Assembly (NCBI GenBank): GCA_902568235.1
Contig: CACFPS010000002.1
Location: 1 to 64,000 of the forward strand
Direction of reading: 5' to 3'
From: an uncultured Pelagibacteraceae bacterium
Lineage (GTDB): Bacteria > Pseudomonadota > Alphaproteobacteria > Pelagibacterales > Pelagibacteraceae
DNA length: 64,000 nt
Position 1 is the stretch's first letter. Each line of letters opens with the position of its first letter. Made by a program: the position numbers and the translations under genes. Below, piece after piece: positions 48,699 to 51,357 of this stretch. Below the pieces are notes generated by a model that was given only the letters and a program-made list of their open reading frames with translations, was not told where the DNA came from and did not search any database.

Positions 48699-48724
48699 TT
48701 GACTTTTTGAACCTCTAATATAAT
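48699..48724 (+). promoter_or_regulatory. putative sigma70 promoter upstream of the ffh leader RNA candidate
   Basis: Perfect TATAAT at 48719-48724; TTGACT at 48699-48704 but spacer is only 14 nt (TTATTG further upstream gives 17 nt). Confidence 0.45.
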
Positions 48725-48730
48725 TTATCG

Positions 48731-48834
48731 CCGTTTCCGCAAAATACAGCAATTTGCGGTGTCTTTGATTACAAAGAGATCGACATCAGTCAGCGAGGTT
48801 TCGCCCACTGGTGCGATACTTGCTGTGTGAAATT
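48731..48834 (+). ncRNA. candidate structured leader RNA upstream of ffh
   Basis: Three consecutive stem-loops: CCGCAAA/TTTGCGG (48737-48759), TCTTTG/CAAAGA (48762-48777), CAGCGAG/CTTGCTG enclosing TCGC/GCGA (48791-48825); locally GC-richer than flanks. Confidence 0.65.
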
Positions 48835-50193
48835 ATGTTTGAAAATTTAACTAATAAATTTGAAGAAATATTTTCTTCTTTAAAAAAAGCACCTTCTTTA
48901 GATGAGAAGCAGGTGGATGAAGGCTTAAAAAACATCAGACTAGCCCTTCTTGAAGCGGATGTGTCGCTTGAAGTAGTTAAAGAATTTATCAATAGAGTTA
49001 AACCAAAAGCATTAGGACAGGAAATAGTTCGCTCAACATCACCAGGACAAATGGTTGTAAAAATTGTTTATGATGAACTAGTTTCTTTTTTAGGAGACAA
49101 AACTTCAGATATACAGCTAAATGCCGTGCCCCCAGTGCCCATTATGCTTGTTGGACTTCAAGGATCTGGAAAAACAACAACAGCAGCAAAACTAGCAAGA
49201 TTTTTAGAAAAAAATAATAAAAAGAAAGTAATGATGGCCAGCCTTGATGTTTATAGGCCAGCGGCTCAAGAACAATTAAGATTACTAGGAGAACAAAATA
49301 ATATTTCAACTTTGCCCATAATAGACGGACAAGTTCCAGCAGATATTTGCAGAAGAGCAATAAGTGCCGCAAATTTAAATGGTTCAGAAATAATATTATT
49401 TGATACTGCGGGACGAACTCAAATTGATTTTCAGATGATGAATGAAATCAAACAAATAGAAAATATAATTAATCCATCGGAAACAATATTAGTTGCGGAC
49501 TCACTAACAGGACAAGTTGCGGCCAATGTTGCAAAAGAATTTAAAAATACAGTTAATTTAACTGGAATTGTCCTTACAAGATCAGATGGTGATGGTAGAG
49601 GTGGAGCAGCATTAAGTATGAAGTATATTGCAGATGTTCCAATCAAATTTTTAGGGGTCGGAGAAAAAATAGAAAATTTTGAGGTTTTCTATCCTGATAG
49701 AATAGCAAATAGATTGTTAGGCATGGGAGATATAGTTTCCTTAGTTGAAAAAGCATCAGAAGATTTAGATCAAGAAAATTTAAAAAAAACTGAAGAAAAA
49801 CTTAAAAAAGGACAGTTTTCATTAGAAGATTATCTTTCACAACTAAGACAAATGAAAAAAATGGGTGGTATTGAAGGTGTAATGTCTTTTCTTCCGGGAG
49901 TTTCAAAAATTAAATCTCAAATGGATCAAGCAGGTGTTGACGAAAAGATTATCACTCAAAATGAAGCTGTAATCTTGTCTATGACAAAAAAAGAAAGAGA
50001 GAATCCTAAAATAATTAATGGATCTAGAAAAAAAAGAATTGCTAGTGGCTCCGGAACTGATGTGGCTACGATCAATAAATTGTTAAAACAATTTAAAATG
50101 ATGTCTGAAATGATGAAAAAGATGTCAAAAGGAAATATGAAAGGAATGGCGGACAAAGGAATACCGCCTGAACTTTTTAATCAAATAAAATAA
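48835..50193 (+). CDS. ffh: signal recognition particle protein Ffh
   Basis: MFENLTNKFEEIF start, VGLQGSGKTTTAAKLA, DTAGRTQID, TRSDGDGRGGAAL; ATG at 48835 preferred over track start 48811, which lies inside hairpin 3. Confidence 0.97.
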   Translation: MFENLTNKFEEIFSSLKKAPSLDEKQVDEGLKNIRLALLEADVSLEVVKEFINRVKPKALGQEIVRSTSPGQMVVKIVYDELVSFLGDKTSDIQLNAVPPVPIMLVGLQGSGKTTTAAKLARFLEKNNKKKVMMASLDVYRPAAQEQLRLLGEQNNISTLPIIDGQVPADICRRAISAANLNGSEIILFDTAGRTQIDFQMMNEIKQIENIINPSETILVADSLTGQVAANVAKEFKNTVNLTGIVLTRSDGDGRGGAALSMKYIADVPIKFLGVGEKIENFEVFYPDRIANRLLGMGDIVSLVEKASEDLDQENLKKTEEKLKKGQFSLEDYLSQLRQMKKMGGIEGVMSFLPGVSKIKSQMDQAGVDEKIITQNEAVILSMTKKERENPKIINGSRKKRIASGSGTDVATINKLLKQFKMMSEMMKKMSKGNMKGMADKGIPPELFNQIK

Positions 50194-50211: not shown

Positions 50212-50670
50212 ATGTTAAAAATGAGATTATCAATGGGTGGAACAAAAAAAAGACCCGTTTATAAAATAGTAGTTGCTGATAGTAAGTTTCCCAGAGATGG
50301 AAGATTTATTGAAAAATTAGGATTTTATAATCCACTACTTCCAAAAGATAAAAAAGAAAGAGTAGGATTAGATATTGAAAGAATTAAATATTGGATAGAC
50401 CAAGGAGCAAGACCTACAACTAGAGTTGCCAGAATATTAGGTGAAAATGAAATAATGCCTATGCCAGCTAAAGGTAATAATCCTCAAAAAGCAATTCCTA
50501 AAAAGGATAGAAAAAAAGAAGGTGAAACTAGTGAAGCTAAAGCAGAAGCACCTAAAGCAGAGGCTAAAGCAGAAGCACCTAAAGAAGAAGCACCTAAAGC
50601 AGAGGCTAAAGCAGAAGCACCTAAAGCAGAGGCTAAAGCAGAAGCACCTAAAGCAGAGGAAAAGAAATAA
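50212..50670 (+). CDS. rpsP: 30S ribosomal protein S16 with APKAEA-repeat C-terminal tail
   Basis: KMRLSMGGTKKRPVYKIVVADSKFPRDGRFIEKLGFYNPL; SD aaaggagaaag. Confidence 0.97.
   Translation: MLKMRLSMGGTKKRPVYKIVVADSKFPRDGRFIEKLGFYNPLLPKDKKERVGLDIERIKYWIDQGARPTTRVARILGENEIMPMPAKGNNPQKAIPKKDRKKEGETSEAKAEAPKAEAKAEAPKEEAPKAEAKAEAPKAEAKAEAPKAEEKK
50536..50658 (+). repeat. 27-nt tandem repeat in rpsP 3' end
   Basis: gctaaagcagaagcacctaaagcagag at 50536, 50605, 50632 and a variant at 50563, with a 15-nt partial unit at 50590. Confidence 0.9.
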
Positions 50671-51357
50671 ATGTTTTTATCTCGAATATTTACATTGTAT
50701 CCAGAATACTTTCCTGGCTATCTAAACAAAGGTTTGTTTGGAAAAGCTCTGAGTGAAAAAATTTGGAATTTAGAAACAGTAAATATAAGAGATTATACTT
50801 TTGATAAACATCGAACAGTTGATGATACGCCTTATGGAGGAGGCAATGGCATGCTAATAAAGGCTGATGTCTTAGCAAGATCTTTAGATGAAAATATAAA
50901 AGAAAAAGAAAAAATAATTTATTTAAGTCCAAAAGGTAAATTGTTTAATCATCAATATGCTAAAAAACTTTCAAATGAAAAATCTATAAATTTTATTTGT
51001 GGTCACTTTGAAGGTATTGATGAAAGAATAATCAAAAGTCGAGGCATAGAAGAAGTAAGCATAGGTGATTTTATTTTATCTGGTGGAGAAGTAGCAGCTT
51101 TTGTAGTTCTTGATGCAATTTTAAGATTTATTCCAGGTGTTTTAGGAAATGAGAATTCTACTGAAGAAGAAAGTTTTGAGAATGGACTTTTAGAATACCC
51201 CCAATATACTAAGCCTCAAATTTGGGAAGATAAAGGTGTGCCAGAAGTCCTATTATCGGGCGATCATGCCAAAATTAAAGACTGGCGTTTATCTCAATCA
51301 GAGGCTATAACACGCGACCGAAGACCAGATTTGTGGCAAAAATATAAAAAGAATTAA
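50671..51357 (+). CDS. trmD: tRNA (guanine-N1)-methyltransferase
   Basis: [47 protein letters not shown]. Confidence 0.97.

Follow-up and report, generated by a model that had tools for sequence, protein, structure and literature searches.

The three-hairpin RNA that lies before ffh in the window, by which we mean the whole 64,000-nt stretch of DNA from an uncultured Pelagibacteraceae bacterium that was analysed, is an already known family, Rfam RF01793, which was described in 2009 as the 'ffh motif'. We consider it probable from comparative sequence evidence that this RNA serves the rpsP operon as its leader and is not specific to Ffh, since its retention before rpsP in a family with no detectable SRP suggests control of a ribosomal-protein operon and not of SRP. 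More tentatively, we propose that RF01793 may be misnamed: it would be a three-helix, pause-coupled autoregulatory leader of rpsP-trmD read by ribosomal protein S16, with ffh as a passenger, and one family would have lost SRP entirely and kept the leader.

The RNA element and its hairpins

An Rfam scan of the whole window called RF01793 as the sole RNA family; the match covers positions 48,769 to 48,821 of the forward strand, with a covariance-model score of 56.9 bits (gathering threshold 35). Together with the description by Meyer et al. in 2009, this match means that the element itself was already known, and it is exactly the Pelagibacter 'ffh motif' that the preliminary description had mentioned. 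The structure given by these authors is one bulged hairpin, reported from SAR11, Rhodobacterales, Sphingomonadales and Rhizobiales, and they considered a role in ffh regulation possible (PMC2704228). Rfam types the family as an sRNA, and no functional study of the motif was found in the literature. The view that the element is not a 4.5S RNA was also borne out: RF00169 was not matched in the window, of 101 genomes searched, the window's own plus 100 relatives, 76 have a separate RF00169 gene, and a 4.5S RNA identity was therefore rejected. The assembly that contains the window, about 80% complete, gave no RF00169 call.

The three stems first reported are all present, on the forward strand, and are here called H1, H2 and H3. 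H1 (48,737-48,759) is a 7-bp hairpin, CCGCAAA...UUUGCGG, formed by 48,737-48,743 and 48,753-48,759. H2 (48,757-48,782) consists of outer CGGU/AUCG pairs (48,757-48,760/48,779-48,782), a G.G mismatch and a 6-bp inner stem UCUUUG/CAAAGA (48,762-48,767/48,772-48,777); CGG is common to H1 and H2 in the window. H2 is absent from the published structure, and one base (A or C) separates it from H3 (48,784-48,813), the published ffh motif, which could be parsed across loci. H3 has 7 bp (48,784-48,790/48,807-48,813), a C.C mismatch (48,791/48,806), an A.C position (48,792/48,805), 4 bp (48,793-48,796/48,801-48,804) and a 4-nt loop. The C.C mismatch, corresponding to the bulge cytosines, occurs in practically all parsed H3 loci, and the position beside it is mostly A.C, otherwise G.U, C-G, U-A, G-C or, in a few cases, a mismatch. 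H3 ends at 48,813 and the ATG of ffh is at 48,835, so that the gap is 21 nt and not 9 nt as first given. A GTG-initiated in-frame extension of ffh begins within H3 (48,811), but it is the ATG that aligns with the starts of other Ffh proteins.

The element is unusually GC-rich, as had been noticed (0.39-0.41 against 0.22-0.29 just upstream), and it folds better than all of 200 dinucleotide shuffles (z = -3.5). To this the comparison with relatives added covariation, which together with the folding confirmed a genuine structured RNA. In 38 leaders aligned without structural guidance, 108 cells of H2 and H3 were changed on both sides, against a shuffle mean of 30 and 14-30 in slid controls; changes on both sides were found at 5 of 7 pairs of H2 and at 9 of 12 counted pairs of H3. 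A second helix beyond the published hairpin is thus supported by sequence covariation across alphaproteobacteria. H1 probably belongs to the conserved unit as well, since its modest covariation score of 0.317 compares with at most 0.191 when the helix is slid, with 67% of cells paired. The mean folding z of the H1-H2 region was -2.5 and -3.0 in the two SAR11 families and -1.3 elsewhere, whereas upstream controls gave -0.4 to 0.1 and coding controls -0.6 to -0.8; beyond SAR11 the margin over the latter is therefore small.

The minimum-energy fold of the window pairs 48,744-48,752 with 48,820-48,828 (9 bp), an alternative to H1 that is not simultaneous with it. A general mechanism in which the H1 loop pairs with the tail ahead of the ATG was rejected, as this pairing was found in only part of one SAR11 genus and was absent in sister species. 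An exact pattern scan of all genomes was likewise set aside as unspecific, with many phyla among the matches listed.

The promoter box and the 3' tail

The TATAAT reported upstream of the element is indeed there, at 48,719-48,724, and from its position transcription is predicted to start near 48,731, at the foot of H1. A -35-like box, TTGACT (48,699-48,704), precedes it on the same strand. The box is imperfect here because its spacer to TATAAT is 14 nt, and this spacing is why a simple promoter scan missed the TATAAT. A TTGAC box precedes most copies of the motif: in the window's family 31 matches, in 31 distinct leaders, lie 84-86 nt 5' of H3, and in other families 60 matches in 60 leaders lie between -125 and -50, whereas TTGAC is rare in control windows (4 of 43, 0 of 22 and 4 of 61).

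The 3' tail that follows H3 (48,814-48,826, forward strand) reads CGAUACUUGCU followed by GU. About 85-100% of distinct tails have a pyrimidine-G step at 11/12 or 12/13 nt past H3, and such a step is almost never found at 9/10 or 10/11 nt. The step of the window, U48,824 to G48,825, fits this hairpin-to-step spacing of 11-12 nt, and a pause with the RNA 3' end at U48,824 is proposed. SAR11 tails have the form CGAUnnnUGCU followed by GG. The corresponding E. coli hisL region, the letters of which were checked in E. coli genomes, is CGAUGUGUGCU followed by GG, and we take it to be the his pause, with a spacing of 11 nt. The window tail is identical to it at 9 of 13 letters, and the mean identity in the window's family, in a comparison made post hoc, is 8.1 of 13 against a background of 3.0. 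The hisL hairpin-stabilised pause and the ffh-motif leader thus share a hairpin with U-G 11 nt on and, in SAR11, the tail letters given above; they differ in that no leader peptide or amino-acid attenuation was seen in the ffh-motif leader, where a pause is inferred. We regard a pause at H3 as possible, though somewhat doubtful.

Two other roles for the tail were considered and rejected. The CGAU of the tail can pair with the AUCG of H2, but a switch between them showed no covariation. An intrinsic terminator was not called in the window, and a test for a U-tract counted 2-4 T among the first 8 nt of the tail in the window's family; U-rich tails follow H3 in several lineages outside SAR11. Since SAR11 tails have no U-tract, termination cannot be the general mechanism.

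Distribution of the motif and the family without detectable SRP

RF01793 was found in 81 of the 101 genomes. In a sample of 289 genomes of the class at least 75 have it, candidates having been capped in large GC-rich genomes; there is one copy per genome, strictly linked to one operon. The motif-less relatives do not serve as counter-examples, as the assemblies of all 20 lack a full-length ffh. In almost every genome, the window included, it is ffh that follows the motif, the exception being the family f51 described below; in parsed loci the distance from H3 to the first start codon can be as short as 17-21 nt.

In the window the motif is followed, all on the forward strand, by ffh (48,835-50,193; Pfam SRP54, SRP_SPB and SRP54_N), rpsP (50,212-50,670; Ribosomal_S16), which encodes S16 and is the proposed regulated gene, trmD (50,671-51,357; tRNA_m1G_MT) and rplS, encoding L19 (51,359-51,943; Ribosomal_L19). 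The general order is ffh-rpsP-(rimM)-trmD-(rplS). Two checks outside f51 found rpsP downstream of the motif in 20 of 20 and 38 of 40 loci, and it is also downstream in three further SAR11-order genomes. One of the two remaining genomes, G352, has rpsP farther on. The other, G330, was rejected as an exception: its ffh frame (L372, 15,262-16,023) turns recF-like past residue 137, and the contig looks mis-joined. In nearly every genome with enough downstream sequence, trmD follows rpsP. rplS was not found in about 8 kb past trmD in G383, though the motif of this genome is high-scoring, and rimM is absent between rpsP and trmD in the window, where the two genes adjoin directly (50,670-50,671); rpsP and trmD are therefore the constant downstream genes. 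In the other SAR11 family checked, rimM is present between them (L376, L377).

Family f51 comprises 18 small alphaproteobacterial genomes of three genera, up to about 1.4 Mb in size. The motif is present in 14 of them, each time directly followed by rpsP. Where the contig reaches far enough, in 13 of the 14, a divergent dapF lies on the other side of the motif, as it does in SAR11. The promoter box, H2, H3 and the tail are all recognisable, and the two sides of the outer H2 stem vary together within the family (CGGU/AUCG, CAGU/AUUG and CAAU/AUUG). Linkage to the rpsP operon, a criterion for a ribosomal-protein leader, is thus kept across rearrangements.

None of the 18 genomes gave a match over the cut-off to PF00448, the SRP54 GTPase domain common to Ffh and FtsY; the same search matched all 14 named controls. 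A hidden FtsY was discarded, as the single weak PF00448 match was an APS kinase. 4.5S RNA was not matched in any of the 18 genomes either, and ftsY was not found past dapF and mtaB in two genomes. SecY is present in 14 of the 18, including 6 of the 6 best ones. At the locus itself (L054, L174, L294-L306, L327 and L328), ffh is missing from the place that it normally occupies between dapF and rpsP, in agreement with the two models. An alphaproteobacterial family with no detectable Ffh, FtsY or 4.5S RNA would in itself matter for the question of SRP dispensability.

In two genomes of another family, f70, Ffh seems to be strongly divergent or otherwise unusual: G288 matches the Ffh M-domain and not the SRP54 GTPase domain, from which it follows that absences seen with a single model can mislead, and the SRP54 match of G168 is weak and partial. 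In two nearly complete alphaproteobacterial genomes, G175 and G230, neither the Ffh M-domain nor SRP54 was matched.

Proposed function and comparison with known systems

Taken as a whole, the evidence leaves us evenly balanced on the following scheme: the RNA acts in cis as the leader of the rpsP (trmD) operon, S16 is its most likely reader, and H3 serves as a pause or attenuator hairpin. The operon ffh-rpsP-trmD-rplS would be transcribed from the promoter immediately 5' of the leader, and as the polymerase leaves the promoter H1, then H2, then H3 would fold. H3, in which the C.C mismatch is conserved, ends 11 nt short of the pyrimidine-G step and would probably act as a hairpin that stabilises a polymerase pause; in lineages with U-rich tails it may act as a weak attenuator. 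During the pause an operon protein, most likely S16, would bind the leader, and bound S16 would lower operon expression when S16 exceeds rRNA. Two points weigh against the rpsP-leader reading: gene order by itself does not prove which gene the leader controls, and f51 represents one lineage only.

The choice of S16 as the effector is plausible and falls slightly short of an even bet. S16 joins 16S rRNA after other proteins and is for this reason not an obvious autoregulator, and a 16S-like site that would indicate rRNA mimicry was not identified in the leader. The effector might instead be TrmD, L19 or a small molecule connected with tRNA methylation, a reading favoured by the near-constant place of trmD behind rpsP and by the existence in Rfam of an L19 leader family in Firmicutes. 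We judge it unlikely, as the failure to find rplS near trmD in G383 speaks against L19, and the single mismatched hairpin would seem to offer a small molecule no apparent ligand pocket. Nor is an effector needed if the RNA were a constitutive structure at the 5' end that keeps the operon mRNA stable or sets how well it is translated. Strong folding right at the predicted transcript start agrees with this, but the C.C mismatch, the varying position beside it and the fixed register of the tail exceed what stability needs, which makes such a structure very unlikely.

A stand-alone trans-acting sRNA, released by termination or processing after H3, would accord with the Rfam type, with the U-rich tails of several lineages and with the listing of the Bartonella ffh leader RNA among expressed sRNAs (PMC7717549). 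It is hard to reconcile with one copy per genome in strict linkage to one operon, with start codons so close behind H3 and with the window, where no terminator was called, and we hold it to be distinctly unlikely. Feedback on SRP protein synthesis, offered as a possibility in the preliminary description, would have Ffh (or free 4.5S RNA) bind the leader and repress ffh. The position before ffh in nearly all genomes, seen by Meyer et al. too, is what this predicts; however, it cannot explain why the motif is kept on rpsP in f51, with no detectable Ffh, FtsY or 4.5S RNA, and Meyer et al. saw in the motif no likeness to the Ffh-bound part of 4.5S RNA (PMC2704228). Such feedback is highly improbable.

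As an rpsP-operon leader, the element would resemble the S2/rpsB and S12/rpsL motifs of SAR11 and the L19 leader of Firmicutes in being a structured leader before a ribosomal-protein operon. It differs from them in that the binding protein is putative and rRNA mimicry was not identified; moreover, a 2024 review states that information on the regulation of the trmD (S16) operon is lacking (PMC10931766). With RF01793 as published (PMC2704228) it shares H3, the conserved bulge cytosines, the place upstream of ffh and the occurrence in SAR11 and other alphaproteobacteria. The family has stood in the catalogue since 2009 under a name that points to SRP, with no function established for it; the family without detectable SRP provides a clean test, which points to the rpsP-trmD operon. 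The published form is one bulged hairpin, whereas the element described here adds H2, probably H1, the TTGAC box and the 3' tail, and in one family sits on rpsP instead of ffh; adding H2 and the tail to the Rfam model should make copies easier to detect and help in planning experiments.
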